Positions 4,522 to 60,622 of a stretch of DNA of 64,000 nt are shown in pieces; within the stretch, counting starts at the first letter, position 1, and each line of letters opens with the position of its first letter. The position numbers were made by a program, and so were the translations under genes. Origin of the DNA: Amphibalanus amphitrite (lineage: Eukaryota > Arthropoda > Thecostraca > Balanomorpha > Balanidae); NCBI RefSeq assembly GCF_019059575.1, contig NW_024882031.1, positions 372,001 through 436,000 on the forward strand, read 5' to 3'. Below the pieces are notes generated by a model. The model searched no databases. It was not told the origin of the DNA and saw nothing but the letters and a program-made list of their open reading frames with translations.

Positions 4522-6171
4522 CTGCGAAAAAGATCATTGTATAAGAAAATACCTAAATAAACAGCAATACGCGGGCAAAAGAGATAGCCAGGGCTAGTAG
4601 AGAGGTCAGTAATCAATAACTCTAAAAAGAACATCTGAACCATGGATTTTGCAAACAGGTCATTGGTCGAGTGGTAGATGTAAGGCGCGTTAAAATTATA
4701 ACCTTTTGCAGTAAACTGTTGACTATTTACCCCCTGAGCGAGGGTCGGCCAAAGCACATCCAAAAAGGTTGGGAGATATATTGGCATGCTTGACGTCCAT
4801 TCGAGTTGGTCAGATCCGGTCCTTAAATTTCAAGAGATGCTAATATTTACTGCTCACCCGTGAGTCGCGCAATAAATCGCCATCGAAACAATAAGGTCGT
4901 CTTTGTTTATTGAAGACGAATGTATACGAATCGCATTTACGAGTATCTTATTACGAAATAAGTTAAGAGTTGATAAGAAACACTGCACAGCTGAGACAAA
5001 ACTTTGGGCAAATGTTATAAGTTGCAGTTTACAGCAATATCACAATGCCTGGGATTTAGGACCGACCAGAGTGAGTTGGTCATCAGCGTCCCAAGCTATC
5101 GAACAAAATGTCAGCATTCGGCATCGCATTCCAAAACACATAGCATTACCCACCCCTGGAAACTAATACGCTTATCTTTATGATATATCCCAGAAGATAA
5201 TCCATCATTCCATTACTTCACAATGGACATCTATCTAGATTATTTGTCAATTAATCATTTCCATTTCTATGGTTAGACCTGCCGATAAAATCCACGATAC
5301 CGACCGACATTCAATCAGTCAAATTCGCCGTGTCGTAATTCAGCTGTCGGTGACACTTGGATTCACAATGGCCCACCGGTTCACGTGAGGAGCATTAATA
5401 TCGTTCACTAATAAGCCCAGGTTTCACGATATCGGTGGCCGCGATAACATTAAGCCGTCGCGTGTCAACAGGTATTACCAGGCTGGCACAGCGGCAGCGA
5501 TTTCTCTGCTGCCGCACCCATTTTTCTAATCGCCACCGAGAACACAAATTACTGTAAACAAAGGGGATAATCTTCATTGCAGCGACGGATACCAACGGAA
5601 ACACCACTGATGGAAAACATGTCAACTTTTCCTAAGATACATTTACACGAAAAGGATCGCATTACAGCTGAATCAAACAAAAATGTCTGGGCAATCTAAA
5701 TAGTGGCGTCGCCTGTTCTCCCTCCTCGGGACGCCGGGACTGATAACTGTCAGCAGCGACACGGCTTGTTTGGAACTGTTTGGCCATTGGTGGATCCGTG
5801 CTCGCGTGACGTAAACAAAACACAGCTCAGGATTCCGGCGCCCAGATAAGCAGCCCGCGCCTCACTAACAATGCGATTAAATGAGCACGTATGACGTCCG
5901 GCACGGACTCTGTATAAATGCGCTGAATGAGGTTCACATAAATGTTATGAAATAAGGATTGCTACCCTAATACGCCGTGAAACGAGAAGCACACGCTAGT
6001 TCGTCGATAAGAGACACTGGCATGCGTTTTGATAGGATGAGCTCCGCCATGCCACGCCAAACTGAATAGTGCCGGTGGCTCCTTTCTAGTTTCTACAACC
6101 ATCCAAAACAATAACCTTAATTTTTCCACTCAGTATGACACCCACACCCGTAAGTGATCCCCTACATAAAA

Positions 6172-6606: not shown

Positions 6607-7599
6607 GTGTTTAGTCTCGACGACCTAGAATGATAAAAGGCACAATCAAATGCAATTGTCACTACTTTTATTGAATTGACGGAAGAAATGACCAAACTAC
6701 CTAAATGTTTTTCCTGGAGCCTTTACGCCCAAGCACACGCCATACGCTACGTTATCGGCGACTTCATACAGTTATCTTATCATATCTGGAAAATGCTTTT
6801 ATGGTCGTCGAATAATCACACCCTTTGCTGACGCATTAGTTCACGCCACTTAGTGAACCAGCAACGCATCCAAAATGAGCCACAACCGACTGAGTCAGTG
6901 ATGACGCAACCGGCACTAGTTTCAGCGCCAACCGGCAAAGATAACGGTGGCCTGAGGAGCATGATCATCCAGTGATCATATCTTTTGTCGTGATTAACTC
7001 TGTTCACCGAAATCAACGGAAAATTATGTAACCTTTTCAGCTTCAAAATCGGCAGTTTCAACCTATATCCTTATAAATTTAGCTGTAACAATACGGGACA
7101 AATGGGAACATCTCCAGGGAATGAAGGAACCCCTGTATATTCTATGAAATCCACGCGCGCTGCATCCCGCCTGTTAACTGTCCATTTACTTTCCGTTATA
7201 TTGACGGAGGAAAGTTATGACATAACATCAGCTATTACTCAGCGAAATGCATAATGAGGCCTCTGCGGACGCAATACACAGAAAGCAACGAACTCTTTTG
7301 TATGGATCTCCGTTTACCAAAGGAAGGAACTCAGTTTACCAATCACTGGCAACTGGACATCTCTGAGAGACCGCACCAGCTTTTATCCGCGATCAAACGC
7401 ACGCACTACTCCTACGCTCCAGCCGCCACTCCAACGTTCTTCGCTACCGACCGATCGACCGACTGAAAACGCGAGCAGCTCGAAAGACAGCCTACCAGAC
7501 AGCGCATTACCACTCGCGATGGTCTCTTCATTGCTTCAGTGCATACGGCACAACCCATTCTCGGGACATCTTCAGTAGGACCGCCCACCCATCCTCCGT

Positions 7600-8010
7600 A
7601 CCCGCTCCTACCTGAAGGGCGGCCGTCCGACCTGTTTTGGCCGAGCGGCGCCGACCACATACAGAGCTCAGCCCACCGTCCGAGCCGTCCCGTACCCACT
7701 AATTGGCCGACGTCGCCGCGCGGCCCCATGCCTAATTAATCGCTCCCCGTTCCCGGACCGGCCCAGCCCGGTCGGGCCGAGGGAGTCCCCATTGATCACA
7801 GAACGGTAGCGGCACCGGTAGCGGTCGCACCGGCGCCGGTAGCTGCCCGGTCACATTCGAGTGCGAGTCGCCGGCGCCGGCAGTCGTACTTAGCGGCGTA
7901 ACAGTGCCGGCCGGCGGCGGCGGTGACGGCGACTGTTGATTGGTTGCCCCGGTGACCGGCCACCGGTCGATGGGCGTGTCTCCCGCTGACCCGCGCGCCG
8001 GCGGCCATTC
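7600..8010. promoter_or_regulatory. GC-rich island with CCAAT-like site
   Basis: A GC- and CpG-rich block with repeated CGGTAGCGG and CCGGCGCCGG motifs and a reverse CCAAT box (gattggttg, about 7937-7945). It has the look of a promoter island for a minus-strand transcript, but no transcript can be assigned. ORFs here are low-complexity and not credible. Confidence 0.25.
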
Positions 8011-16881: not shown

Positions 16882-17052
16882 CTATTTGCTGTCGGTGTCC
16901 CCGTTGACGGCCGAGTAGGGAATCTGGGGCGCGATGGGAGACATCTCGAAGTACAGCTCCGGGTGATCTCCGTGATCAGGACCGTCCACTGTCGGCTCAA
17001 AGCCCAGGTCGCGCCGCACGCGGCGGTCCGGCTGTACTGAAGCTTTCAGCCG
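16882..17052 (-). CDS. ine: SLC6 exon 11, cytoplasmic C-terminus and stop
   Basis: The acceptor gtccacag opens [17 protein letters not shown], the usual basic stretch just after TM12. A 56-residue tail follows, ending GDTDSK and TAG. It contains acidic and Pro/Tyr segments ([16 protein letters not shown]). The tail is shorter than the Cys-rich tail I recall for the fly protein. Confidence 0.9.
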   Translation of the reverse strand, partial: RLKASVQPDRRVRRDLGFEPTVDGPDHGDHPELYFEMSPIAPQIPYSAVNGDTDSK

Positions 17053-20000
17053 CTGTGGACAGAGAGCAGCACTCAGCAGGGGCAGATTTACGTTTGGGTA
17101 GTTGTCTTTGGGCGACTTTACGAATCAGATTATATGAGCTCCATAGCTCCTCTTCAGTGATTGCATAAGATTACGTACGTCTATCAACAATAATGCGATT
17201 CTTTCATATTTTTTTTAGCATATCTTTCACGATATTGGCCATAACAGCAAGCGGGCACATAGCATAATAGCTAGCAGCTAAATTGAAATAGTATCCAAAT
17301 TCCAGCAAAGCACCCACCGTTACAACACAGCACACCACACACAAAGCTCGCCGGCCCGGCGAGCGTCGCCCTCTCACCTCCATGAAAGTGTCACCCTCAG
17401 CCCGCCAGAGGGCCAGGACGGCGCACACGGGGATGGGCAGGACGGGCAGCGCCACCAGCAGCCAGCCGAGTCGGGACGCCCACTCGGGGTAGTCGTACGG
17501 CCCGTACGTCAGCGGCTCGTGGTCGATCAGACTGAACACCCAGATGGCCTGCGGGGGTAGATGGGGTCAGGGGTCAGACGGGGTCCGGAGTCAGACGGGT
17601 CAAGTAATAAGTAGCAGTAGCACATACCTCTCACCACAAGCAAACAAACATTAACAAGCAATAGTTCAAACTTAATCCTGCTCTATCCATCCTAACCCAA
17701 ACCAGCCCCTCCCTGCCCGCCTCACCAGAATCAGTAGCGGGGCCAGGAACTTGAGACAGACGATAAAGTAGTTGGAGAACCGTTTGCCGGTCATGGCCAG
17801 GAAGTCCTGGTTGAGCCTCTCGGTGCCGTACACCCAGGCCAGCGTCACGACCTCGAACAGCGCCAGCAGGATGAGGGACGTGTTGGTGACGTTGTAGTCC
17901 ATCAGCTGGAACACGTACATGCCGCCCTGTGGAGAAGAGGGAGAACCCAGAGCTATGAATGACGACCGAGACTGTGTAGAGCTATCCCCATACTGGGCTA
18001 CTTACAACCGTACAAGAGACTCATGGCGACTTTATTAAACAAACCAAACGTTGGCGTCATGAAAAGTAGCAGTATCTGCACCGAAAGTATCACCGTGAGT
18101 AGCCGGCAAAAAGCTTGTGTTCGATAACCTACCTATAACATGTCTCCCGAAAACGCAAGCTACAGTACGGGTATATTCCACAGAAAACACCCCACCTTTC
18201 ACCCGTGCTTGACACCTAACAACGCACTTCGCCACCACAGAAATATCGCCCAAGTAGGGGAGAGTGGGGCAAAGCGGCCACCCGGGGCAAAACGGCCACC
18301 CATCGTTTTAGCCCTTCATAGCTGGTGTCAGTTCCAATTTATGGTTTCCAAATATACTTCTCTTCACGGTCGTTCGAATGAGCCAGACCGGGGTTTCAGG
18401 CCCATCACCATTGTTCTGTGAAACACGGAAAGCATTTCTTGCCAGGTTACCAATTATGTTTGCAATTTTTAAATGTTATGTTATTCCATAACCGTTTGGA
18501 ATTTTTATAACCGTTCTTGTCCATGCATTGCATGATTATCGTACATGTATTCTACCAATTTTAATGTTTTTTACCCCACTAATAGCTAAGCTGGAATATT
18601 TTTGTCTCGGACGGTATGCGCGGGGCAAAGTGGCCGGGGCAAGGTGGCCACCGCCAATTGGCCCTAAGTTGTTTCCATCTGGATAAAAAACATTATTTAT
18701 ATTTAAATGTGTCGTCATGCATTCATCTTGGCCACTTTTCAGTTGCATGAGTAACCAAATAATGCAATTAAATGTTTTTTTTTCATGAAAATCCTTTCTT
18801 TGTTTACCTACAGGTGGAAGATGATAAAGTAAACATCCATCTTCGCTTAAAACTTGTCACCATCAAATACCCTAGGCGTACATGAGGCAACTATTTTGTT
18901 TCTCATATTGGGACTTAAGAAGACGCCGGTGGCCGCTTTGCCCCAGGGTATGGGGCAAAGTGGCCAATATGCATAGGTTTAAAGTTTTGTCAATATCTTG
19001 CGTATGTGAACGCCTTTGGAAATAAAACGCAGTTGAAATAAAAGGCAACTTGATAGGGATCACATTGGTATAGAAAGAATCTTTCCAAGTTTAAAAATCA
19101 AGCGTTGGCATCGTGAGAAGCGTTAGGGTGGCCGCTTTGCCCCACTCTCCCCTACTTATATCGACATGTTTATGCGATAAGCCTCAATCAACACAGTAAT
19201 CGTCTGCCAAAAGTGTCCCTCGAGTGCTCCCTGTCCCCCTCCCCTCCCTGAGCCTCGAGCTACCTGTGTGACGTAAGGCAGTCCGAGGCCGAAGGACAGC
19301 AGGCAGATGACCAGTACGAGCAGCTCGTGGCGTTTCAGGTACCGTTTCACCAGGCCGCTGTAGCCGTCCTGCAGAGACGTAATCACCACCTCCAGTGTGG
19401 CAAACTGCCGGCGAACGACGCGTCATATGACGTCATTGGAGGACACAGGGAGGTGCAGTGTCTAACATGAGATCAAGGTTGTCAGTGTTTCTGAATGCAG
19501 GAAAAATGTCACTAAGGTAAAATATTAAGTTTGTCAACAGTCTTCAAAACGAAACGACATCAGTCATCACTCAATGATTACAAGTCGATAGATGAAAACC
19601 TCCGTTATATGTTACCGTCTCAAACGCCAGCAACTGAAACAAAACCATCTAAAACTGCAGTCGACTATAACCCATTTCTACATTTGACGATCTTAAAAGC
19701 AAAACGTTCGACAGTTGGACGTGCAAATGCCCGTCATAACTTGCGTCATAAATGCCCTTCACAACCCGTCTACTAACTACTGGGTATGGGTATTCGCCAT
19801 TATTCGTATTTACTCGCCCGTCTCAGTTTTCACGTTTCTCACCTGGCTGTCCAGACCGAGGCAGAGCAGCATGAAGAAGAACAGCACGGACCAGAGCTGC
19901 GGGAATGGCATACTGGCCAGCGCCTTCGGGTAGACCACGTATACCAGGCCGGGACCTGAAACAGACGGGTGGGCAATCAGACAAACAGCACGGCAAACCA

Positions 20001-23000
20001 AATATGCCAGGCCGGGGCCTGCAGCGGCTAAGGTTAACAATTCAGGTAAACGGTACGGTAGACTACGTCATACGCCAGGTCGGGGCCTCAAACGGTGTAC
20101 ATTGGCAAGTCATCAAACGTTTCATCAACGCAGGCACAGACTTCTCTATATATAGAGAAGCATATATAGAGAAGTCTGTGACGCAGGCAATCAGCAAGTG
20201 AGACGAATTTTAGCTAATCGATATCTTTATCCTAGTCACCCAGTGTACCCACATGAGCTATAAGCAGTTTGAAGAAAAAAAGATACTAAAAAATAAAGGA
20301 AAATGGGAATCGACAAACATCTAGACGAGACCCGGTCACGGGAAACTTGTGCGTTCACCCCGTTTCAGAAATCTTTTATCGCTCTTATATCTGTCCTCTA
20401 CTGAGAACTATTCGCAGAAACATCAGGTTTGAGTCTGATCATCGTTAGTTTAGTTCTGCGGTCCTGCGGAGCCAGCGGTCAGTGACTAGGACGTAGGTAC
20501 TTGGTACATGGTACTCGTCATGATAACAACCATCAATACCTCCTACATCGGACCACCACGAGTCACAGTGTCATAACGAAAATACAATGCATTGGTTGTG
20601 TGGAAAGATAGGAGACGTCGGACTTTGGCTTCAAACGAGTGGTACGCAGAAGTTAGATGGAACTGCTGACAACAGATGAGTTCCTGTGGAGAAGTTTGAG
20701 ACGATATTTCGCATCGATGCAACCTGACATCGGTCTTATTCCAATGTCATCGACTGGTGTCGCTTCCACTACCTATTGCTCCAATGAGCACTGAGCAATG
20801 AGCACACTTTTTACAGTGTTACCGTGAATATAGCCCAAATGAGTATCGATTGGGGTGCGTAGTCCATGACGTTATCAGTGATAAAGGCAATGGATCAAAC
20901 ACAAGTTTCAACATGCTCCACCGAATGCACTCTTAGTAAACCACTAACGTCAGACAAATGACAAGCGCTATATGTTCCCATTTTCCCCCATCATACGTAC
21001 CGTCGACGACCACCTTCTGAATGGGTCTGCCCAGCTCCATGGCGATGTTGCCCAGTGTTGCGAACACGATGATGCCGGCGAATACGCTGGTCAACAGGTT
21101 GGCCAGGATGATCACCATGGTGTCCATCAGGATCGTCCTGTTCTCGAACTTGTTGTAGCTGGCGAACGTGATCATCGAGCCGAACCCGATGCCGACCGAG
21201 TTGAAGTTCTGCGCCAGGGCATTTACCCAAACCTGGCGGGCGGCAGACAACATGCGTTTAAACGTAAAATTAATCACATTATGTCATCTAAGACCGGTCC
21301 TAGGATAACAACCGTCTCTAGGATTACAATGCTGCAACTTTGTAAAACACAATCACCACCAAAAAAAGCCGAAACACAGGCATACTTTCTCACCCAGTCC
21401 CCATCCCCTCCCTTCATAAAGCCACTATAACCAAACTTACTTCACTAACAACTCTAACCCACCTTGGAGTCGGCGAGTAGTTGCCAGTGCGGCTCTCTTA
21501 CCTTGGAGTCGGCGAGTAGCTGCCAGTGCGGCTCCTTTACCTTGGAGTCGGCGAGAAGCTGCCAGTGCGGCTCCCTTACCTTGGAGTCGGCGAGTAGCTG
21601 CCAGTGCGGCTCCTTTACCCTGGAGTCGGCGAGTAGCTGCCAGTGCGGCTCCCTTACCCTGGAGTCGGCGAGTAGCTGCCAGTGCGGCTCCTTTACCTTG
21701 GAGTCGGCGAGTAGCTGCCAGTGCGGCTCTCTTACCTTGGAGTCGGCGAGTAGCTGCCAGTGCGGCTCCATAAGGCTCGCTCTGACTTACCTTGGAGTCG
21801 GCCAGCAGCTGCCAGTGCGGCTGGAACAGATAGCGGATGCCGGTCGAGGCACCCTCCAGGGTCAGCGCGCGCCATAGGAAGGCCGTCAGCAGGAGGTAGG
21901 GCGCGATCACCGTGACGTACACCACCTGCCGGCAGACGGCAGACGCACCGCCCTACGTAGGTGCGTTTCAACGGGGCATAAGGAGCACGGCCTGACACCG
22001 GCCGCCGCCCGAGGGGGGGGGGGGGGCAGACGCACCGCACTACGTAGGTGCGTTTCAACGGGGCATGAGGAGCACGGCCTGACACCGGCCGCCGCCCGAG
22101 GGAGGGGGGGGGGGGGGGGGCAGACGCACCGCCCTACGTAGGTGCGTTTCAACGGGGCATAAGGAGCACGGCCTGACATGGTTGCCGGCCCCGTTGAGGG
22201 AGGAGACACGGGACCATCACGCACGGCCATTTTCACTTTAGAGCGCCATTTACACATTGGATGGGAAAAAATAAAAATAAAAATCTCGAGTCATCCCTAC
22301 CAGTTTAGGTACCTAATGCACTACATACAAATTTTGAGGACAAGACGTGACTGATCGAGAGGATTAGATGATACCACAGCTTTGATTAGGTTGAATAAAA
22401 GTGTAGGCATGGGTGCAGTCGCCTGAAGGCATGCAAATTTCACGATACTAAGTAAAACTAGTTCTTCAACATTCTTACGAGTTACGACGCAACCGACACG
22501 ATGTCGACGATATACGCGACAGAAAGACCGGACGAAAGCCGATGACGAAATGGGCGATTCATGAGCAAACCGAAGATTAAATCTTATCCAACAACTTACC
22601 GCCTTCAACTTGCCGACTGCGCATGAATCATCAAATTGCAGCAAACTGCAAAGATTACGTCACAAAGCCGCACATACGCCAGCGGTCATCCCATCGAACC
22701 GGTAGGAGCCAGGTGAAAACGGGAACAGAATAGATGACGGAGCAGAAACGCCCGCCGTATAGCCAGGAGTCACGGCGTGCTCGCTCGCTATTACCTTGCC
22801 TACAAACCAGTTGTATCTGGATTGCACTGCCGGGACCACTCGCAGAGGAAGCTGGGAAGGGCCGGATCGTGTCAGTGACCTCTCTCGGCTGTCGCTATGG
22901 ACAAGGCCGCTGGGCGACCGCAGTAGTACGGCGAGAGATACGAGCTGAGGTCATGAATTTCAGAGTGTGAGGTCTGCCTTGGTGATGCCGGGATGATAAG

Positions 23001-26000
23001 TGGGTCCAAGTGGGAGCGCACACTGGACTTGGCACTAGCGCAGGCCGACGACATTACGCGAGTTGCATATCAGTGATTGTGCACGCCGGCCTTTCTTGTC
23101 GCGGGGCTGAGCAATCATTACTGTTTGAACAAAGTTAGCATTACAGCATCAAAGCCAACACAGCAAACCTGCAATATTGACACTTGACACACTTGGCGCC
23201 AAGGACCAAACAACATGCAACAGATATAAGTTCACTGATCCACGTGGATGCACTACTATCAGGCTTTCAACTAAGCCCCGCCGGCAGAGGTAAAGCAGCC
23301 GAGGGATATGTTTACCGTCGTGAGCGTCGGTAATTTTCCATCATGAAACACGACACCGCCCTACACCGGGCGAGAAGACACGAGGAAAGTAGCGGCGTCT
23401 GCCGCCGATGCCGACGATATTCTGAGGACCGTGATCACGAAAACGGCGGCGAATTTCGTGACAGCCATATATGTAGAGCGCGAGGCTGAAGCGACTCTAG
23501 CCGTTCACCTTCCTCTATGGACCTGTAGTCCGGTCCGGTGCCATTCCAGATTCACGCTGCAGCACAGACCGTCCCGAGTCATATACATAAGCGACCAACT
23601 AGCGCTACGCCGCGCCACATGTGACTGCAATGTCTGCATGTTGCAGGAAAAGCCTACGCAGTACGCACTGCCTTGCTGTGGATTACGTAAAATCTCGACG
23701 GGATCAAAATCGTAGAACTTTGACTCAATAGGCAACTAACATCTTAAACAGAGCCATTTAACAGTCATATGCAGGTATATGATCACCGATTAAGCCGCCG
23801 TAACGGATTAATTAATGAACAAAAATATAATTCTAACTATACCTAATTAATGCAATAGGTAATCAACACTGTAACGCCTGACTGCACCAAGCTGCGAGAG
23901 GAGAGCTGATGCGTCACTATAGCTTGCAAGATCTTACCAGCACTTTGCCCATTACAAAAGTGCATGCTAGCTTCCCTTGCCAGATCCCACAACTTGATAC
24001 GGCTCAGCAACCCACCCTGCGACCGATCCTATCTCTTCCCTCCCAGCTCTCTACACGACGTCGCTGCCCACCTTGCCCGAGGACCTGATGGACTTCCAGA
24101 TGGAGAAGTAGACGAGGACCCAGGCTAGCAGCAGCGTCAGCATCAGCGGGATCCGGATCGTGCCCAGGTCGGACACCCCGCTGGAGATCTCCAGCACCCG
24201 GTGGCTGAAAACGGCACACCGTCACTCGTCACGTCAGGTAGGGGTTATGTGAGGTCAGGTCTAGTCACAGTTAGGACAAACTCAGGAAGATGGTTAATCC
24301 CCGGATGTTCCATGCGGTGCCCTTCCCTAGCTAAGCGATGTTCTATAATATACTCTGACAGCTACGGCCTAGGAAGCGCCGTGCAGCAGGGGCCGCCCCA
24401 CTACGGCCGGCGCGGCCCGGTTACCGGCAAGGTCAGGGGTGGCACCTTCAAGGTCACCCGGTCAGTGCCAGCGGGACAAACAGCTGAGCGGAGGCGCACC
24501 TCGTATAGGTGGGCCACGGCCGGCGCCGCGCCGCGTCAGGCGAGCGACAAAACAGCGGTAGGTAATCGCCCTCCGCCCGACCACATCGCACGAGCCCGGC
24601 ACGCGAGCGTTTCGGTACCCGGTAAAGGGTGTGGCAGTCGCCGGAGCTGTCACATAGGTTAAATTTAGATACAGACGGAATCGGTCACCGTTCACGTTCA
24701 GTCCAAGTGGATGTCTGGCTATGTGACACATGTCACTACCTTTCACCCGAGAGGGCAGGACTGATAAGAGGTGCTGTCGGCTGTCACAGCGACGGGACCT
24801 CAAAGTCACATTCCAGCCTAGGAGCTAGCTGTCCAGTCAAAGTCATGTCCACTGTCCCGAGTCAACACACCTCTCACAAGACAAATCGTCGTCGTTAAAA
24901 CGCTCGTCCGCTCATTATGTCTGTCAGCATACTGCATAGGCGTTCTGCCTCATTGCCCAACCAATTAAACGGTCCGCACACGCATTTAGGTAATGTCGGT
25001 GGCGTTGTCGACTGTTACCAATAAACGTGTCACTAGCCGCTGGCTGCCGCTCCTGGATTACGACATATGTCCTCAGATTCCTCCCACAAAGGCGGATAAG
25101 AGATGTATGTACTTACCTACATAAGCGTGTCATAGCGAGTTAAATAAGAATAACGATTCACTCTAACTACTTGCAAGGAAATGTACTACCAAACATCGTT
25201 GCTGCACCTAACGAGAAAACATATTTCCTAGATGAGGCAAATAATAAATATGTTTATTGTATATGATACATGACGCATTTCGAGACTCCGTTGAAATTTG
25301 TGGCAAAGAAAGCCAATTGAAACCAGACTAAGATAATGAACTGTAAGAGGGGATAAAATCCGCTTCATTCCCTTTCACAGCGCAGTTGTCCTTGGCTCTA
25401 TTTGTAGCCATGCCATGGTGAAATATAGCCACTGACCGCTCGGTATCGCCCGATGAAGTGGAGACGCTACCTACCGCCGCCGTATCTGTTTACAGTATCT
25501 AATAACTCAGAATGCCATCACGAAGGACCACTGATACGAAGCGTGTGAACTCAGGGGAGGGGAGAGGTGGCTGATAGTCGGTCCCACACGACGGGGGAGG
25601 GATGGGCGAGTGCGAGGAAGACTAGAGGTGTGGCGAGGGGCAGAGAGGGGGAGGCGAGGGCAGGGGAGGGTGGCAGGTGCGAGTCGGGTGCATTTGGCGA
25701 CCGCATTGCCTGATTAAAATTATTAAACGAATAGAGATAGGAAAATGCTTCAACCCGATGAGGTCAATTTTTCCGTTGGAGTCAGCTGCCAATGCCACAC
25801 TGTAACAACACCTTGGAACCGTTTCTAAACCACTGTGCAATGTTTACTATGCAACCAGCCTCGAGTACCATCGTCTGAATTGCATTAGCCGTCTTCATAT
25901 TCCAACCCGAGGACAGATCTATAGACGCTACGTCAGACGACGGGGAGGGGTGGCATTCTTACATCTCGATAGTGGCATAAATGGACCATAGGCGACTTTG

Positions 26001-29000
26001 TAATAAACGTAAGCGAGGAAACAAGATGTACCGATAGTACCTCATTACCGGAGTGAACGTTAGACGGGAAATGTGTCATCAGAGTTGGTATACGTGAGGG
26101 GAAAAACATTTCGAAAATAGATGGAAAATTAAGTCCCCGACATCCGAGAGCTCACTGAAAATTTAATGCATAAACTGCTATTTATACATAATACTTAAAA
26201 AATTAAGGCGTTAGCAGCTTTATAGGGTCTTATCCGTGACAATTGAACGAACGCTGGCACATAAAGTAAAGCATACCTATAATATATTGTGGGAGCAAGG
26301 GCACATGCAATGAAAAAAGACGTAAAACAAAAATGAACACCACAACTCCCAACAAAGCATAAACTATACGTTTAATCAGGCCGAGCGCCACAAATCCTCC
26401 TCGACCCCAGTTCACCCCAGTCCTCCCGACTCACCTGAAAAACACCTCCTCGGGAGTTGTGGCCAGCGCCGCCGACTTCCGTGCCGTGTGAAACACGGAA
26501 TCGTTCCCCAGCACCGATGACACATTGGCGAACATCGCCGCCGACGCGTTGCCCGACCACAGCCCGTCGTCTGCGTCGAAACCTTCGGTAGCGTTAGCCG
26601 CGGCGGTCAGTGACCGGTTCAGGGGTGAGTCCTCACAGCCCCACGTGGAGTTACCGCACGTCGTCCACGGCAGCGTGCTGCTGAACGAGCTGAACAGGTA
26701 GTAGAGCGCCCAGCCGATCACCACGTTGTAGTAGGTGCAAAAGATGAACGAGATGACCACGGGAGCGACCCCGGCACCTGACGTGCACAGAGAACGGCGG
26801 AGGACACGTCAGTTCCAGAGAAGGCAGCAATCAGTAATTCAAAGCATTCGGTTTAATTTTTTTTGTGCCTGACCCTGATATTATGTCTCCCTGCATGTAG
26901 GTCTTTGGTCCATAAGTATTAAGTGGCAGCCTATGTTCGAAGTTTTGAGAAAAGGAAACCGTCTAAAAATCTATTGCGTTTTACGGAGCTTGAAGAGTTA
27001 ACGACTTGAATGTTATGACAACGTTTCGGACTTAGCTATGGAAAGATCGTCTCAAATCTTAAACGTCTTTTTCAAAATCTTGGCCACATCCTGAATAAAA
27101 AAGAATGTCAAGCATCCTCTAAAACCATTCAAAATCATTGAGTCATCCCATCAACAATCTAAAGAGAGGCAACACTACTGGGCGAGGCGCAAATCGGCAT
27201 GCGACGTCACGAAGACGACCCCGAGAGCGCGTGAGGTCGCATTCACAGCCCGAATGACCGACCCACACCCCAGCTGGCCTACCGGACGATATGAATCACA
27301 TAGTGAAAACAGGCGCCTGTTTTCATAGAGCGGGTCGGGGGAATCCAGATGCGCGCAGTCATGGGAAGGCGGGGAGGGACGGGGGAGGACGAGGGAGGGT
27401 GATGAGGGATGGGTTGGAGGGTCTGTGGCTGGTGCATACCGTTCGTGGTGACCCAGGGTGGTTTGAACGGTGCCAGCTGTTGCCGCTCTGTTAGGTATAA
27501 TGAATACGATTGACATTCATAAGTCACCATATTCAGTGCCGTTTCATTATTCATGCCATATAATGGCGATGGTACATGCCACCATTTTTTTTTCCATTCC
27601 AACTGTTTATTGGTAATACAAATTAAACGCATAATATATAGTAAAATAAGAGGAGGCACAAAAGCCAAAGGGCTTAAGTCTCGGTGCCAACTCTCGTGAT
27701 GCAGTGCACCGGAAATATGTATAATACTAGCGCAGACACATATACATGCATACTTACATACATACACGTACATACATACATACACATACATACAAACATA
27801 CTTACATACGTACATACATATATACATACGTACACGCCTGAACACATTCATCATCTCTCATACTTCGAACATACGCTCAGTCAGAAGTTCGCCCGACCGC
27901 CGCCCCGTCGCCGGCCACCGCCCGCAGCCACCGCCCCGCACGCCCCGCCAGGAGGCCGCGCCCGGCCAGGTCCCTGGATGAAGTTAGAAAACGCATGAGA
28001 ATCTGTGAGTATCTTGTATAAATTTTTGGAAGTGGCGTGCCACCGCCCGACCGCCGACACCGTCGAGGCCTGAGCCGTGCAGGAGGATTTCCAGTTGGAT
28101 GGTTTTAGGTTGAAGTGTAAAGTTGGATTGTAGGCTTCGGGATATATTTTGGTTCATTTCGTCTCTTTGTCGTGTGTATAATGGGCATGAGAAGATAAAG
28201 TGTGCTGTGCTTTCTTGAGGGAAACCGCACAGACAAGCAGGAGAGTCAGTTTTCTGAATTTTGTATAAATGAGAATTTAACTGTGTCGTGTTATAGTCCT
28301 TAGTCTGGTGTGAAGAATGTTAAGATTTTTGCTTCCGTGTGAATAATATGTGGGTGGTTTGGATGCCGAATAATGTTTTTTGATCCATTTGTTGAAGTCT
28401 GAGAGGGGCAATTGCTTTGTGGTCTCTGGCAGTGTATTCCATTGTTTTCCTGTGAGAGTAAAGAAGGAGCGTTGATGTGTTGTTGTCCGGGTTCGAGCTA
28501 AAGTATGGTGTCTAGCGTTTCGAAGTGTCATGTTTATGTCATATTGTCGTGTACGTGGGATGATAGTTGAGATATAATTTGGAATATTGTGGTTATCAGG
28601 TCTACTTAATTTGTGATAGAGTGTCAATCGAATGGGATGATAGTTGAGATATAATTTGGAATATTGTGGTTATCAGGTCTACTTAATTTGTGATAGAGTG
28701 TCAATCGATGTGTTTGTCTTCTGGTTGTCAATTTGTCCCATCCTAATTCGGTGCGTAGTTTGTCAGATGGTGTTCTAAACAGGGTCCCAGTCGTCAGTCT
28801 CGCTATTCTGTTTTGTAACGTCTCCAGTCTAGAAATGTCTCTTAAAGGGACCCTCCCACCTTAACATTAGATTTGAGTTGAGATAGCCAAATTGGTGGCC
28901 ATGGCCTGAAAATACCGGTTTGGGCACTCACAACATCGAAAAATGCTTTAATTCGGAGATATCGAATTTCAAACTTGCAGTTTTCGGATTCTAAGGGGCT

Positions 29001-31224
29001 AATGCATTGGTATGCCCCCTTAGAATTTGTGACGTCAGCGGAGATCTAACGATTTTAAATCTTTTACTAAAACGTTTGGTAGCACGCGGTGGTATATGCT
29101 GCTTTGCGCGCAACAAATGCCGCACTTTCAAATAAAGTCGCTAGGAACAGCGGAGATCCCAAAAAGTAAACAAAAGTAAAAGTCTAATATCTTGAAAACC
29201 GGTGAATATTTTTCGATGAAATTTGGTAGATATTCGTTTTTGCTCTTTCTGAACCGAGCGACATCACTTCCATGCCAATTCATTAACTTTTTTGAAGGTG
29301 GGAGGGTCCCTTTAAAGTGATATGTCCGTCGTACACAGTGTCACAATAGTCAAAAATAGGTAAAATGTACGTTTTGTAAATTTGTTCTAGGATATGTCGA
29401 GGAAGATACTTTGCAATTGAATATAATGGGCTGGTATTTTTGTTTATTTTGCTTATAATTTCGTTTACATGTTCGTGGAATCGGAGATCGTGAGAAAACG
29501 TCAGTCCAAGGTGTTTATGAGTCTCATCTTTCGGTATAGGAGTGTCAGCAAAATGAAGTGTCGGCTGTCGGTGTGACTTTTTAAGTGAGAATGTTTGTTG
29601 ACTAGTTTTTGCTGAATTGAATGAAATGGCCCAGTCTTGTCCGTATTTGTAAATTTCGTCTAAGTCTCTTTGTAAGGTCGTTTGGGTGTTTTGTAGTGTG
29701 TCTGGTGAGTGGGAGGCATATAAAGAGGTGTCGTCTGCGAATAATAAAATGTCGTTGTATGTGCGTTTTGATAGATCGTTTAGATAAATTAGTGCTAAAA
29801 GAGGTCCAAGTACCGATCCCTGGGGGCATCCTGCGTTAATTTTGCGTTGCTGAGAAAAGGAATTCCGAATTTGAACTCGTTGTAATCTGTTACTAAGGTA
29901 AGATTTTAGCCAGTGGAGAAGTGTTCCTGAAATTCCGAATTCATTTTCGCATTTATATAGTAATCCTTTATGCCAGATCTTGTCAAAATATTTCGAGATG
30001 TCTAGGTACATTGCCGTGAAGTCTTGTCCGGTATCTAAAGCTTTATATAGGTTGTGTGTTAAGTAATGAAGTTGAAGTTCGGTGCCATGTTTTTTGCGGT
30101 AGCCACTTTGTTTATCTGTCAAAAGGTCGTGTTCTGTAATGTGTCCGTAAATTTGCCTGTATACAATTTTTTCGAAAATTTTAGAAATGGCGGATAATAT
30201 GCTTATGGGCCGGTAGCAAGTTGGATCAGAAGGGGACCCTTTATTTTTGAAAATTGGTTTGATGTTCGCCTTTTTTAGCTCGTCTGGATAAATGCCTATT
30301 GATAATGATTTGTTAAATAGTTGAGACAGTGGTTTTGCACCTTATGACCCCCTTGCTTCTTCCGTTCCCCTCGCCGACTTCCTCGGGTCTAAAAGCCCTC
30401 CGATGGCCTCCACCCGGTATCAAGTGAACTGACCTTTGAAGAAAAGACAGAGCTGTCCCATGGCCTCCACGGTGCCTTGTCGTGTGAACTGACCTTTAAA
30501 GAGTGGACAGAGCCGTCCCATGGCCCCCACTGGGCCTTGCCGGGTGAACTGTCCAATGGTGAGCTCCATCAACAACAGGGGAATGCTGCAAACCACCATC
30601 ATGATAAGATATGGAATGAAAAACGCGCCTGAAAAGGACAGGTATGCAAGTTATGCATGGATCGCTTCACAAACTGAAAGCCCGTTTATCGTACTAAATC
30701 AAAACAACTTATAGGCGGGAGGAACTTTCCATATTAGGTAATGATTACGTGACGAACCTACACGAAAACACCATTTAATAACACGATGACACAAGTATAC
30801 ACCCCAAGCGAGCTTGTGTGAAACATAGAGGTGGAGGCATGGACCGAACCGATCTCGAGCTTCTGACTGGAGAAGTTCAACATTGTTAGTCATACACGTA
30901 TCGCTAAGGAACTGCTCAATATCCAAGAAGAGCATCATTTAGTCACAGATCTCCTCTAAAACTCTTTCCAATGTATCTACCCCACACGATCAACGATGGC
31001 TCACCTCCCCCAGACTTGTAGCAGAGATAAGGAAACCTCCACAAGTTGCCCAGGCCGACGGCGTAGCCCAGACAAGCCAGGATGAACTCCACCTTGTTGG
31101 TCCACGTGGTGCGACCCCTCGCCCCCCGGTGGGTCGGTACCACCGAGAAGACCGAGTCGGCATCCGAGTCACTCTCGGCATCGCTGTCGACACGGAGAAA
31201 GGGGCGGTATGCGTCAGAGTAATC
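16882..31224 (-). CDS. ine: SLC6 sodium/chloride-dependent transporter, Inebriated-like (11 exons)
   Basis: This plasma-membrane symporter should move a small osmolyte or neurotransmitter-like solute with sodium and chloride. Its exons are 31224-31005, 30628-30494, 26777-26435, 24204-24072, 21925-21791, 21232-21001, 19955-19843, 19404-19264, 17926-17726, 17548-17378 and 17052-16882. They sum to 1995 bases, all phases match, and they give 664 residues plus a stop. TM1 reads [20 protein letters not shown]. It has Gly where monoamine carriers have Asp, so a monoamine substrate is unlikely. TM6 has [19 protein letters not shown] and TM8 has [15 protein letters not shown]. From memory the exon sequences follow Drosophila Inebriated closely, more so than GABA or glycine carriers, but the substrate cannot be told. 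No ATG precedes TM1 in the first exon, so an upstream exon must supply the start. Introns hold many transposons. Confidence 0.88.
17378..17548 (-). CDS. ine: SLC6 exon 10, TM11-TM12
   Basis: 57 codons, phase 0 at both ends. It opens [16 protein letters not shown], continues [19 protein letters not shown] and ends EGDTFME before the donor GAG|gtgagag. DTF-ME/W-ER is the standard SLC6 junction to the C-terminal tail. Confidence 0.93.
17726..17926 (-). CDS. ine: SLC6 exon 9, TM9-TM10
   Basis: 67 codons, phase 0 at both ends. It opens [12 protein letters not shown] and ends FLAPLLIL. It includes the [12 protein letters not shown] segment between TM10 helices that is conserved in the family (WFYG in many members). 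Confidence 0.93.
18257..19152. mobile_element. 896-bp TA-flanked MITE in transporter intron 8
   Basis: Inverted ends GGGGAGAGTGGGGCAAAGCG and CGCTTTGCCCCACTCTCCCC, with GGCCACC continuing the match inward, are flanked by TA on both sides. This is the target preference of Tc1/mariner-type elements. The GGGGCAAAGTGGCC motif recurs internally near 18623 and 18950. There is no transposase ORF. It lies between exons 8 and 9 of the transporter. Confidence 0.8.
19264..19404 (-). CDS. ine: SLC6 exon 8, end of TM8 to TM9
   Basis: 47 codons, phase 0 at both ends. It begins [16 protein letters not shown] and ends [11 protein letters not shown] before the donor CAG|gtagct. It continues the conserved TM8 stretch begun in exon 7 (LGLDSQ|FATLE). 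Confidence 0.93.
19843..19955 (-). CDS. ine: SLC6 exon 7, TM7-TM8
   Basis: 113 bases, phase 1 to phase 0. It reads [18 protein letters not shown] then [20 protein letters not shown]. The acceptor is cgtctgtttcag. Two degenerate tandem copies of the acceptor and exon start lie just upstream (see 20018 and 20086). Confidence 0.93.
19956..20100 (-). repeat. Tandem copies of the exon 7 acceptor region
   Basis: Upstream of exon 7 the start of the exon (ag|GTCCCGGCCTGG) recurs at 20018 (GCAG|GCCCCGGCCTGG) and, more decayed, at 20086 (GAG|GCCCCGACCTGG). The spacings are 63 and 68 bases. The 20018 copy keeps an AG preceded by a modest pyrimidine tract and stays open in frame with exon 7, reading [12 protein letters not shown]. 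Use of that acceptor would add 21 residues without a frameshift. The 20086 copy lacks a good acceptor. Confidence 0.7.
20136..20180. mobile_element. 45-bp fold-back with target duplication
   Basis: ACAGACTTCTCTATAT and ATATAGAGAAGTCTGTG are inverted arms around a short centre. The copy is flanked by ACGCAGGC on both sides (20128-20135 and 20181-20188), a 7-8 bp duplication as left by hAT-type transposases. It is a minimal MITE in transporter intron 6. Confidence 0.75.
20189..21000. other. Transporter intron 6, remainder
   Basis: Intronic sequence between exons 6 and 7 with no recognised element or coding signal. Confidence 0.6.
21001..21232 (-). CDS. ine: SLC6 exon 6, TM6 and flanking helices
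   Basis: 232 bases, phase 0 to phase 1. It opens [18 protein letters not shown], then [19 protein letters not shown], and ends IQKVVVDG across the junction. The NSVGIGFGS and SYNKF residues are the unwound TM6 region that helps bind substrate, sodium and chloride in SLC6 proteins. Confidence 0.95.
21454..21780 (-). repeat. 39-bp minisatellite made of the exon 5 end and donor site
   Basis: Eight copies of a 39-bp unit lie directly downstream of exon 5. Each repeats the last ~30 bases of that exon (CCGCACTGGCAGCTACTCGC then CGACTCCAAG) plus a 5' splice site. Exon-like ends fall at 21736, 21697, 21658, 21619, 21580, 21541, 21502 and 21463, exactly 39 apart. The first is 55 bases beyond the true exon end at 21791. 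Donors are GTAAGA, GTAAGG or GTAAAG, with GTGGGT in the last copy. GTAAG and GTAAAG copies partly alternate, suggesting a two-unit expansion. Because 55 is not a multiple of three, using these donors shifts the frame into exon 6. Confidence 0.95.
21791..21925 (-). CDS. ine: SLC6 exon 5, TM5 and extracellular loop 3
   Basis: 45 codons, phase 0 at both ends. It begins [19 protein letters not shown], then [19 protein letters not shown] and ends LLADSK before the donor AAG|gtaagtc. The junction to exon 6 (ADSK|VWVNA) matches the family. Both sides of the exon carry tandem arrays. Confidence 0.93.
21939..22183. repeat. 86-94 bp tandem repeat beside the exon 5 acceptor
   Basis: Three units start at 21939, 22025 and 22119 with GGCAGACGCACCGC, followed by CCTACGTAGG (palindromic), GTGCGTTTCAACGGGGCAT and GGCCTGACA. 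Poly-G runs of differing length separate them. The array begins only 13 bases from the exon 5 acceptor and may interfere with its pyrimidine tract. Confidence 0.9.
22184..24071. other. Transporter intron 4
   Basis: Intronic sequence of mixed composition. No transposon ends or other coding exons are recognised. Confidence 0.5.
24072..24204 (-). CDS. ine: SLC6 exon 4, TM4
   Basis: 133 bases, phase 2 to phase 0. It reads [19 protein letters not shown] then [19 protein letters not shown] and ends IRSSGK. The acceptor is gtgccgttttcag and the donor AAG|gtgggc. Length and the KSI-SSGK ending are typical. Confidence 0.93.
24205..26434. other. Transporter intron 3
   Basis: A 2.2-kb intron with no recognised element. 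A purine-rich strand asymmetry is seen near 25550-25680. Nothing else is supported. Confidence 0.5.
26435..26777 (-). CDS. ine: SLC6 exon 3, TM3 and large glycosylated loop 2
   Basis: 343 bases, phase 1 to phase 2. It opens [19 protein letters not shown] (TM3), then [16 protein letters not shown], where the two Cys would form the loop-2 disulfide of the family. About 70 residues of Ser/Ala/Asn-rich loop follow with six N-x-S/T sequons (NST, NRS, NAT, NAS, NVS, NDS). The loop is longer than I recall for the fly protein. It ends EEVFFR/S at the donor CAG|gtgagt. Confidence 0.93.
26778..27579. other. Transporter intron 2, proximal part
   Basis: Intronic sequence without recognised elements; the LINE copy begins at its far side. 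Confidence 0.5.
27737..27832. repeat. (CATA)n-like microsatellite
   Basis: About 95 bases of imperfect CATA/TACA repeats (ACATACATACATACACATAC), lying within the 3' UTR of the LINE copy. Confidence 0.85.
28277..28627 (-). pseudogene. LINE ORF2 C-terminal fragment
   Basis: A 116-residue open stretch matching the region after the reverse transcriptase of the larger LINE. It reads [18 protein letters not shown] versus LYHHLKTADPQIPPYVLS there, followed by the W-N-LP block. It is cut off on its upstream side by the 77-bp duplication. Confidence 0.75.
28557..28710. repeat. 77-bp tandem duplication in LINE coding sequence
   Basis: The block beginning GGGATGATAGTTGAGATATA and ending GATAGAGTGTCAATCG occurs twice with a 77-base period. 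As 77 is not a multiple of three it shifts the LINE reading frame, and the C-terminal ORF stops there. Confidence 0.9.
28846..29311. mobile_element. 466-bp TTAA-flanked element, Kolobok-like
   Basis: Inverted ends AGGGACCCTCCCACCTT and AAGGTGGGAGGGTCCCT are flanked on each side by TTAA (28842-28845 and 29312-29315). Removing the element plus one TTAA restores the LINE reading frame ([13 protein letters not shown]). TTAA duplication is shared by Kolobok and piggyBac. The AGGG start fits Kolobok (R-R-G) better than piggyBac (C-C-Y). It has no coding capacity. Confidence 0.85.
29316..30335 (-). pseudogene. LINE reverse transcriptase fragment
   Basis: This segment encodes most of a non-LTR reverse transcriptase: [32 protein letters not shown] (motif A region), [18 protein letters not shown] (motif B) and [12 protein letters not shown] (motif C, FADD). 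It then runs through [13 protein letters not shown] to the inserted element. The start is missing by 5' truncation, so the copy is dead. The frame is open across about 1 kb, so the insertion is not ancient. Confidence 0.85.
30434..30493 (-). repeat. 60-bp tandem copy of exon 2 end with second donor
   Basis: The last 60 bases of exon 2 are repeated immediately downstream with several substitutions. The copy reads [20 protein letters not shown] against [20 protein letters not shown] in the exon, and ends in the same donor AAAG|gtcagt at 30434. Because 60 is a multiple of three and there is no stop, use of the distal donor would insert 20 residues, doubling intracellular loop 1, without changing the frame of exon 3. 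Confidence 0.9.
30494..30628 (-). CDS. ine: SLC6 exon 2, TM2 and intracellular loop 1
   Basis: 135 bases, phase 1 to phase 1. It reads [19 protein letters not shown] then [20 protein letters not shown] and ends CPLFKG across the junction. The acceptor is acctgtccttttcag. GQFTRQGP is a conserved family motif. Whether the proximal or distal donor is used cannot be told; the proximal gives the family length. Confidence 0.93.
31005..31224 (-). CDS. ine: SLC6 exon 1 (first recognised), N-terminal tail and TM1
   Basis: It encodes an acidic Ser/Asp stretch ([17 protein letters not shown]), then [19 protein letters not shown] and TM1 ending CYKSGG at the donor GGAG|gtgagcc in phase 1. Two acceptors are possible: gccgtcgcag before 31224 (phase 0, better pyrimidine tract) or ggctcag before 31268 (phase 1, weaker tract). 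The frame is open across both. There is no in-frame ATG, only a GTG, so coding sequence must come from further upstream. Confidence 0.85.
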
Positions 31225-31269
31225 CTGCGACGGCGGGATGTTGGTGAGGAGAAATTCGCTTATGGATTC

Positions 31270-34200
31270 TGAGCCATTTTGGATAGGGTGTTGACAATCG
31301 ACAATTTCATTAGAGCCGTCATTGGGCCCTTTCGGGTAAATCAGAGCTTACGTCTCAAAGGACAGAGTTATGGGTCTGCGCTAAGTCCTTATTATCACCT
31401 ACAACCGCAAACCGTCGTTTGCGGTTGTCCGCAGTCGTTTGCAACAGCGGTTCAAAGTTTCCGCATCAGTAGGTAACCAGATAACGTTTCATCGATGATA
31501 GTAGCGTATGCCTACAAATGAAATCGCACGCCGAACGAGTGGTCTCGTTACATTCGCGGAAGCATTTTAAACGGCACTGCTGTCTTATATGTGAAATTTG
31601 AGATGCAAGCAAAACACACGAAGTGGGAATGTCCCAATAAGCGATAAAGGCAATAACTCATTTTGGACCATCAGGGCAAAGGCTTGCTCTATAGGTCGCT
31701 GGAGCACTAGAGGTGAGGGCAAAATCTTTCAGGCGCTGGGACGATTCCGGATCTCGATCGATAACGGCATGTCTAGGTATATAAGAAACGAAAGTATCTT
31801 TGTATTAAGTATTTGTTATGTCCGGTTACAAAATAACACTTTTGAAATTTAAAGCTTTATTGAGCTTCGATGACAGGAAGGCTCCAAAATATCAAGTAGG
31901 CACTTGAATCATTATAACCTATTTCAAAAATATGGACGCCTTACGAGTTACGAGCGACTTATTTATGCACAGATCGCGGCCGCTCCCAGGGCAGCAGTGT
32001 CGAGAACTCCGCACGGCAACGCGCCCGTCCATCCGGCTAATGTTTTATTGAACACCTCCAGGCCATAAGTCATGCAGGATCGGCGCGTTTACAAGGCAGA
32101 GAACGGGCTTCGATTCGAAGGTCTTATGCAGACGAGGGCCCGAAATGCCCCTAAGCACCCCTGCCATCGTTGTAAAAGGAGAAAAACGATTGAATGTCAG
32201 TTGGTTACAGCATAATCGAAGAAAATCGAGCCATAACGATATTGAAGTTTCCGAACCATAGCGCATTATCACGAATATCGACGACGTATAATCAGCCACT
32301 AGTTGCGAAAAAATAAATTTTTGGAGAGATGAAATTGCCAATGGATCATACCTATAGGTATAGTAGACGTGCAGGGTAACAATAGGCGATGGTGCTAATT
32401 ACAGTGACTTATCTCAAATTACATTCCCAGACACATTAACGAGATTATATATTTAATGGCCATATGGCCCCATTGTCTCAGCACGGCCAGTCGTGCACCT
32501 TTTATGATTGACCTATTTACATGTCAATGTGAACCTGCATTTACATTTTGAGCTATTGAATTTCACATAGGGACCTAAGTTCAGCGCCTACATGCATGCA
32601 ACGCAAAAAAACTGAGGAACGTTAAAAACAAGCATACGGTCACAAGAAAGGTCAGCATGCCTAATGCACTTATCGCCCGGTCTTGAAAGCAGCATCTAAA
32701 CAAATATAAAAGACCGATGCCATACTTATATAAACATGATTTAGACGATTCCTATCATGTTAGCGGCTGGCTGGTTACTTCCACATCGTGGCGAAAACTA
32801 ATCGATATTTACCAAACAGCTCATCCCGTGGCTCCTTTCTGGCAGCGAGGTTCGCCATGGCTGCACTGTGTAGCGGGATATTAAAGAATGATATCAAAAT
32901 ACCATTGATATGAGGATGGATTCAACTTTTGCGGACTTGAGGCATGCCTCCAAAAGTCTCCCCTTCCAAACGAACCAAAGATAAGCAACTTGAGCGCAAC
33001 AAGGGCAGAAGGCAGAGTTGAGGCCCGATTCCATGCATCAATCTGGAGTGTAGCACTCCAGTCAGCTGATTAGACAGCTGTGCCCATTTTGGCCACTGGG
33101 ACATACCGACAGGAACTGGAAGGCGACGAAACCTAGACCGGAGGCTGTGGCATCACCAAGACAGGAAGTTCTGACGTCAACTTAGCTCGTGACATCACCA
33201 ACATAGGAAGCAGTGACGTGACCTGCCTCGTTGTGACGTGACCAATCTCGTTGTGTCGTGACCTGTCCCATTGGACAGCAATGCAGTGTTCTAAAATTGG
33301 ATTTTGGTTGGGTGTGCCAATGAAGAAAAAAATCATAGGATGAGAGAAAAGGAAATAAATAACCGAAGTGTATTTGCAAAATGGTGTAATGCCAATTTGT
33401 ATGCCAACTGATAAACCAGGATTTCATGTCAGAATCTTGACAGGGTGTGAAACAAAAGGATGTGGGTGCATCAACAGTCAAGTGACATGTAAACTGGCTG
33501 TTGGAAATACATGAAACTTTTTCAGAGATGAAGTAAAGTCGGTCATTCATATTTTAGGGATGTAAGTATTTTCCCCATTAGGTGTGATTTGCCACCAAAA
33601 AGTCTGAAAAATGAACACTGCAGCAGTGTGTCCGTCCAGTGTCCTCCCAGCTCCCGGTAGGAAGTGGTGACTTTCCTCCGGGTCGGCCGGACGTGCGGTC
33701 AGAGATGAGGAGGGGGAGGGCGCGGTGATACAGAGGGGGTGCAGCGTGCACGCCGCGCGGGCCCGCCCTGCTCGGACGCTGTCGGTTTGTTTGTACAGGC
33801 CGGATGGGATGACACGTGGACACGGTGACGAGCCCGGCTCCGGGGGGGCGCCTGTGACCTCTCAGGGCGCTGACGCGGCGCCCGGGACCGACGGACGAGC
33901 AAAACAAACAAACAAACACTGCAAGCCAGCAGAGAGATCATGGTTCATACTTCATAGCTGAGTAGCAACGAGCTGTTGGCATGGTTATATACATGGAAAA
34001 ATACAATTAAGAGCCCCTGAGAGATAATGGACCGTATAGCTTGGCATGACATGGCAGTAGGATTACGGAACTTGTCATGATACTGCACTAGGATGCCTAG
34101 AAGGTATCCAATCGACATAAAGGGTAACTGAGTTTCTGGAGCGGAAGGAACGCACCTGTACATATAACTTTTGAGAGGACGGATTCATTCTCAATAGTCA

Positions 34201-35015: not shown

Positions 35016-35318
35016 TACAGAAACAATTGTCGACACAAACAAACAAAATTCGATTCCATCAATCAATAAATCGTGCAGCGCTTCAATCAGCTCCTTGATG
35101 AGAGAATAATTTCATATATACATGGCTCTCGAAATAACGATGCGCCGTCCATGATATCTAGGATACATGTACAATATACAACACACAAGATCAATATACA
35201 ATATACAAAATAACAACATAGAATCTGCATGAATCATCACATTGTTTGGCGCAGCCTAAATCAACGGCACAATCAGACAGTAGTTGTCACAATCAATTTG
35301 TGGATATGTACAATATAG

Positions 35319-39343: not shown

Positions 39344-39646
39344 CTATATTGTACATATCCACAAATTGATTGTGACAACTACTGTCTGATTGTGCCGTTG
39401 ATTTAGGCTGCGCCAAACAATGTGATGATTCATGCAGATTCTATGTTGTTATTTTGTATATTGTATATTGATCTTGTGTGTTGTATATTGTACATGTATC
39501 CTAGATATCATGGACGGCGCATCGTTATTTCGAGAGCCATGTATATATGAAATTATTCTCTCATCAAGGAGCTGATTGAAGCGCTGCACGATTTATTGAT
39601 TGATGGAATCGAATTTTGTTTGTTTGTGTCGACAATTGTTTCTGTA

Positions 39647-60600: not shown

Positions 60601-60622
60601 CGTGTTTACCTTGTGTACTTAC

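Follow-up and report, generated by a model that had tools for sequence, protein, structure and literature searches.

The window analysed here, 64,000 nucleotides of the barnacle Amphibalanus amphitrite (positions 372001–436000 of contig C534, in an assembly of 807.6 Mb and 2644 contigs), contains a gene for a sodium/chloride-dependent transporter of the SLC6 family. Its 11 exons, numbered 1–11 in the scheme of the first-pass annotation, give one SLC6 protein on splice-consistent translation; exon 1 is placed as beginning at 31183 on the evidence of a database protein, P0001. The product is 97% identical to P0001, whose database name is A. amphitrite "ine-like isoform X2," and 63% identical to P0003, an ine-like protein of Pollicipes, and SLC6 structures match it with an E value of 2.4e-136. 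To judge from these matches, the gene encodes an SLC6 transporter of the inebriated type, with homology that spans the SLC6 fold. An Rfam scan of the window at the gathering threshold returned no known RNA element.

Three exons of this ine-like gene are accompanied by repeats of their own splice boundary (Table 1). The first-pass annotation had reported three such repeats in one transporter gene, and each was found again where it had been placed, on the minus strand. Its description of the copies as including splice sites, as separate events, and as affecting both donors and acceptors is borne out by exons 2, 5, and 7. That the copies lie on the intron side is also true, but wherever splicing uses the exon-proximal site this holds by definition. 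Two further features, the partial third copy at exon 2 and the minisatellite upstream of exon 5, had been absent from its list.

Table 1. The ine-like gene and its boundary repeats, in window coordinates; a slash marks the exon edge.
Feature	Position	Strand	Remarks
Inebriated-like SLC6 (sodium/chloride-dependent transporter) gene	16882..31183	-	Splice-consistent chain, 11 coding exons
Additional 5' coding exon of the ine-like gene	60606-60944	-	Protein search match
Exon 2	30494..30628	-	Donor AAAG/GTCAGT
Tandem duplicate of the 60-base 3' end of exon 2	30434..30493	-	83% identity over 60 nt; own terminal AAAG/GTCAGT
Third, partial exon 2 copy, GTCAGTTCAC...GTGGAGGCCATCGGA	30394..30433	-	Repeat family D6 and alignment
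87/94-bp minisatellite, 2.7 copies	21938..22178	-	Stops 12 bases before exon 5
Exon 5	21791..21925	-	Donor AAG/GTAAGT
Eight 39-bp copies of exon 5 end and donor	21461..21769	-	TRF 7.9 copies, 94% matches; all with GT
Exon 7	19843..19955	-	Acceptor TTTCAG/GTCCCGG
Second copy of exon 7 start	19956..20018	-	Acceptor CTGCAG/GCCCCGG 63 nt upstream; 80% over 30 nt (D8)
Third exon 7 copy	20019..20086	-	Acceptor-like TTTGAG/GCCCCGACCTGG; also on C1369

A second contig, C1369, is colinear with the window (C1369:120971-139525 with window 17286-32035). The larger blocks are 88–94% identical, and the block over part of the exon 5 array is 81% identical. All three boundary repeats are also present on C1369, with different unit variants. 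Their presence on both contigs indicates that the arrays predate the split of the two copies and are no one-off assembly error, and assembly noise is an unlikely source of them. C1369 is probably the other haplotype of the window's locus. Occurrence on two contigs was common for other gene matches in the same searches, and recurrent paired contigs are expected where haplotypes have not been collapsed; for a related barnacle, the part of the published report available to us describes 66 genes with separately assembled alleles that differ by 5.5% on average (PMC8270832). The assembly is fragmented and holds near-identical contig pairs, which would fit arrays that are assembly artefacts or a C1369 copy that stems from a recent duplication of the gene and is a locus of its own, not the other haplotype. 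Given two separately assembled contigs that share all three arrays but differ in their unit variants, the recurrence of such pairs for many genes, and the presence of similar arrays in other genes, we consider this account very improbable.

At exon 2, a second, whole donor lies 60 bases past the live one. The 60-bp unit can be read as CAGTTCACC through AAAGGT, and on that reading the live donor, GTCAGT, would be exon-derived from position +3 on. The duplication may thus not only have added a donor but also have replaced the sequence of the live donor, from +3 onward, with exon-derived bases. The acceptor of exon 7 is preceded by two diverged copies of acceptor and exon start, 63 and 131 bases upstream (exon starts at 20018 and 20086), and in these copies an AG stands before the exon-like start.

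The array at the end of exon 5 is the longest of the three. An initial 55-bp unit leads to the first of the eight 39-bp copies, and on C1369 units of 39, 55, and 38 bp are variants of one unit. Donor-bearing copies number 29 on C1369, mostly of these three lengths, versus 8 on the window's contig. When the two contigs are pooled, GT is kept in all 37 array units and G at +5 in 34 of the 37. The outermost donor-bearing unit reads GGTGGGTTAGAG on both contigs, whereas the inner units read GGTAA; by inspection, without a tree, the inner units appear homogenised and the edge unit distinct. The live donor itself differs between the two contigs (GTAAGT versus GTAAGG), which suggests that the live end of exon 5 shares in the turnover of the array. 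On the other side of the exon, the exon 5 acceptor of P0001 is an AG 27 nt upstream of exon 5, within the last unit of the minisatellite, and the 9-residue insert of isoform X2 arises from that AG.

Tandem duplication at exon boundaries had been put forward in the first-pass annotation as a possible route to alternative splicing, and the copies could be functional alternative sites that give longer transporter isoforms or unproductive transcripts. Such a route is possible: splicing at the second donor of exon 2 (+60 nt) or at the nearer acceptor copy of exon 7 (+63 nt) would, on the window's contig, extend the protein in an open frame. On C1369, however, these frames are broken, the second exon 2 donor lying at +61 nt with a stop and the second exon 7 acceptor at +65 nt. 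All eight exon 5 copies on the window's contig would shift the frame, and the exon 5 extensions on C1369 spread over all three frames. Frames that differ between the contigs argue against a protein-level function of the copies, and the pattern is what neutral copies would be predicted to look like. A conserved alternative coding extension was rejected as the main reading on the same grounds, the frames being broken on C1369. Donor scores lend functional use some support: the live exon 5 donor has the highest score on the window's contig (8.5), but on C1369 it scores 7.3 and many array donors equal or exceed it, with scores up to 8.5. The minisatellite-derived acceptor of isoform X2 also points in this direction. 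On the other hand, the database gene model, P0001, skips the copies, its joins using the exon-proximal site at the donors of exons 2 and 5 as well as at the acceptor of exon 7, and an ine paralogue on contig C144 has copies at neither the exon 5 donor nor the exon 7 acceptor. Functional use of the copies therefore seems to us quite unlikely. The kept GT and largely kept +5 G of the exon 5 units would also be predicted by selection on donors, but concerted evolution explains it.

The paralogue also bears on the age of the arrays. None of its nine scored boundaries, from the exon 4 donor to the exon 8 donor, has copies (scores 6.5–10), and the edges of its exons 5, 6, and 7 fall at the same protein positions as in the ine-like gene. 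Introns thus exist at these places without arrays, and nothing in the sequences suggests that the arrays predate the split of the two genes. For other barnacles, the search for orthologues yielded protein sequences only, such as P0003 of Pollicipes. The idea that the duplications created the introns was considered and rejected for exons 5 and 7, where the paralogue has boundaries at the same positions. The paralogue (L035, region C144:920362-920664) seems to have a GC donor, AAG/GCAAGC, after its exon 5.

Boundary repeats are also found in other genes. In a second SLC6 gene (C1207:157885-158220, likely partner C606), diverged copies of the donor TTCTTCAG/GTGAGT stand in a row behind it, and C1207 has one more of them than C606. 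Three myosin genes carry them as well, one of which we take to be muscle-type and another myosin V from sequence features, Pfam giving the family only. In the muscle-type gene (C868:238586-238747), the exon end and donor are duplicated once and the GT of the copy has become AT; the duplicate is present on C868 (own-intron score 31) but not on the likely partner C1044 (7.0). The myosin V locus (L070, on C388) has a 32-bp donor array at 4606-4691, with a longer, diverged copy near 4800-4855, and a 96-bp acceptor array of 4.3 copies at 7534-7944. When these repeats are compared with the partner, C472, the longer exon-end copy matches at 88% and the third 32-bp unit at 75%, while no match was reported for the second. 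In the remaining myosin (C52:298012-298140), an acceptor is preceded by units some 34 bp long that contain AG and the first six exon bases, or near forms of these. A cause specific to the ine-like gene was rejected because other genes carry such arrays.

How far the repeats exceed chance was assessed by comparing a 37-nt query over each boundary with 500 bases of its own adjacent intron, with swapped boundaries and random intron positions as nulls and a score of at least 18 as the threshold for a copied boundary. In the ine-like gene, the two copied donors have scores of 25 and 27.5 and the exon 7 acceptor scores 18 in the window and 19 on C1369; the remaining 17 of the 20 internal boundaries score 6.5–9.5. 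Swapped donors (n = 3036) have a 99.9th percentile of 21 and a maximum of 24, and swapped acceptors (n = 2656) have a 99.9th percentile of 17 and a maximum of 20. The two donors therefore lie above every swap and the acceptor above all but the top 0.1%.

The first-pass annotation went further and held that three such boundaries in one gene exceed chance, which would make the gene special. This claim was not supported, as other genes share the feature and boundaries are copied at nearly the same rate as random intron positions. At the threshold of 18, 2 of 10 donors and 1 of 10 acceptors are copied in the ine-like gene, compared with 3 of 34 donors and 1 of 35 acceptors in other genes (one contig per recognised pair). 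The copied boundaries of other genes are those of the second SLC6 gene and the muscle-type myosin, with myosin V contributing two. Random intron positions reach the threshold in 4.3% of 1360 cases in the donor test and 2.0% of 1400 in the acceptor test, and the excess outside the ine-like gene has P values of 0.18 for donors and 0.51 for acceptors. With the ine-like gene included and contig pairs counted twice, the donors stand at 7 of 59 versus 4.1% at random; in a similar test, 7.6% of 3000 random 60-nt window positions score at least 18. The probability of at least three copied boundaries in the ine-like gene, uncorrected for the choice of gene, is 0.017 at random-intron rates (0.041 for donors, 0.015 for acceptors), and rises to 0.07 at rates of 0.07/0.03 and to 0.16 at 0.10/0.04, two settings that bracket the rates at the boundaries of other genes.

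The boundary count is small and partly post hoc, the exons of myosin V at L070 (5 donors, 8 acceptors) having been added after TRF arrays were seen; without them, 2 of 29 donors and 0 of 27 acceptors are copied in other genes. Boundaries were set by simple GT/AG scoring near match ends, which misplaces some of them; at exon 6 of the C144 paralogue, the GT chosen differs from the one that fits the protein. The count leaves out long single-exon matches, boundaries with no plausible GT/AG near the match end, one contig of each recognised haplotype pair (C315 and C35, probably a pair, were both kept), L051 for its length, loci L013, L014, L027, L030, L042, and L043, and table rows that came with no DNA. 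The acceptor copies at C52:298012-298140 are not among the matches at the threshold of 18.

These counts also bear on the possibility that tandem duplication in this genome favours splice junctions, and donors in particular, which would make boundary arrays a targeted mutation class; R-loops and paused polymerase are examples of what could cause it. The donor rates both outside and within the ine-like gene, and its one copied acceptor in ten, lean that way, as does the placement of arrays found by TRF, 4 of 19 of which lie over known boundaries outside the ine-like gene versus 2.4 expected from random placement, in a test where some arrays are counted repeatedly through overlapping loci and the exon edges of L070 are approximate. 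Inside the ine-like gene, 1 of 4 arrays does so versus 1.0 expected, or 2 of 4 if the exon 5 array is counted, its TRF start falling just past the exon; one edge used here (exon 1, 31230) was placed wrongly. The excess outside the gene is insignificant, however, and in an earlier, cruder window test 6 of 120 boundaries were positive versus 7.5% of 600 random flank windows, with exon 5 of the ine-like gene on its two contigs supplying four of the six. With its longer windows, that test barely reached the diverged SLC6-B array at the same threshold of 18 (scores 18 and 22), hence the 37-nt queries. The frequency of arrays at exon edges is about that found at other places in introns, and targeting of junctions is in our judgement unlikely.

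We propose instead that the arrays are probably "mirages," neutral tandem duplications that span exon–intron junctions and have since expanded as a minisatellite does. A tandem duplication would happen to land across a junction, leaving the exon whole. The protein frame and the one database gene model suggest that the exon-proximal copy is spliced, and the extra copies would become intron and be close to neutral. Once at least two copies are present, slippage and unequal exchange could expand them and homogenise the inner units, and at exon 5 this may have produced a splice-donor VNTR of 8 copies on one contig and 29 on the other, the outermost donor-bearing unit having kept its own sequence, GGTGGGTTAGAG, during turnover. 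A counterpoint to this reading is that donors outside the ine-like gene are copied about twice as often as random positions (3 of 34 versus 4.3%, P 0.18), which may reflect a modest preference of the arrays for donors. Boundary arrays are common in this genome, and the preference for donors is at most modest and is not established by these counts.

The closest known parallel to the proposed neutral duplications comes from amphioxus, where, in the parts of two reports available to us (PMC3087553, PMC3902484), mirages are described in Adh3, the globins BflGb6 and BflGb9, troponin C, and PGBD5. They are minisatellite-like tandem duplications of exon–intron boundaries, at donors and acceptors, in which many units keep AG/GT. 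Inner units are homogenised and edge units distinct, splicing is reported to be undisturbed, and haplotypes of BflGb6 have copy numbers of 6 and 3 (same sources). As far as those accounts allow comparison, the barnacle units likewise span the boundary and carry donor or acceptor signals, their copy number differs (8 versus 29, if C1369 is the other haplotype), and the inner units at exon 5 are homogenised beside a distinct edge unit. The barnacle differs in being a crustacean, not a cephalochordate, in having three such boundaries in one gene and up to 29 copies at exon 5, and in that splicing is here deduced from sequence. Length instability in somatic tissue has also been reported for amphioxus Adh3.

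Two polymorphisms of human CBS are also similar, again on the accessible parts of their reports. The first, c.844_845ins68, is a common polymorphism in which the intron 7/exon 8 junction is duplicated once; the distal, exon-proximal copy is preferred and the mRNA is normal (PMC2630376). It is a single polymorphic copy of 68 bp, whereas the exon 7 copies of the barnacle are diverged and present on both contigs. The second, located where exon 13 meets intron 13, is a VNTR with a 31-bp unit that varies between alleles, more repeats being reported to lower CBS activity (PMC5188458); like the exon 5 array, to which we liken it by position alone, it is a short-unit VNTR at an exon end. Intron gain by tandem genomic duplication, as in potato RdRp, shares with the barnacle an intragenic tandem duplication tied to splicing, in the part of the source available (PMC4974935), but the introns at exons 5 and 7 of the barnacle gene stand at the positions of the paralogue's introns, so none was gained there.

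Our literature search on boundary arrays, which left subscription papers mostly uncovered and is no proof of priority, found no crustacean report. Within what was searched, the host phylum, the occurrence in several genes of one genome, and the differences between paired contigs are new. Mirages have so far been described as a possible lancelet speciality, with the two human CBS polymorphisms beside them, and their presence in several crustacean genes suggests that tandem duplication across junctions is general, and mostly neutral, in genomes with high diversity and rapid minisatellite turnover. Should the paired contigs prove to be the haplotypes of one animal, a barnacle would provide ready-made sets of donors repeated 1, 2, 8, or about 30 times. 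Such sets could show how one of several near-identical sites is selected by the spliceosome, and with what frequency these duplications give rise to new splice forms or introns.

A bolder view is that tandem duplication in barnacles repeatedly strikes splice junctions across the whole genome, donors most of all, and that a noticeable share of exons carries VNTRs of their own splice sites. The arrays would then vary between an animal's two haplotypes and act as a permanent reservoir from which alternative donors, alternative acceptors, and new introns could be drawn. We regard this view as tentative and rather doubtful. If it is true, such arrays may mark very diverse, minisatellite-rich genomes in general, amphioxus being the other well-described case.

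Several further repeats were observed in the window. A stretch in the intron between exons 2 and 3 (27583-30336, minus strand), recognised by eye as resembling a non-LTR retrotransposon, starts about 60 bases past the third exon 2 copy and is missing from C1369. Within it lie an exact 77-bp tandem duplication (28556-28708) and a pair of 21-base perfect inverted repeats 432 bases apart (28842-29315), which resemble a small nested inverted-repeat element. Two TACAATA-type 7-bp arrays, at 35170-35224 and 39438-39492, are oppositely oriented and separated by about 4.3 kb, an arrangement that resembles the two flanks of an element. The long 5' intron of the ine-like gene holds large minisatellites at 44299-44874, 50005-50582, and 51684-52999 (units of 56, 25, and 21/106 bp), and a 144-bp tandem array with 99% matches (63243-64000) reaches the end of the window.
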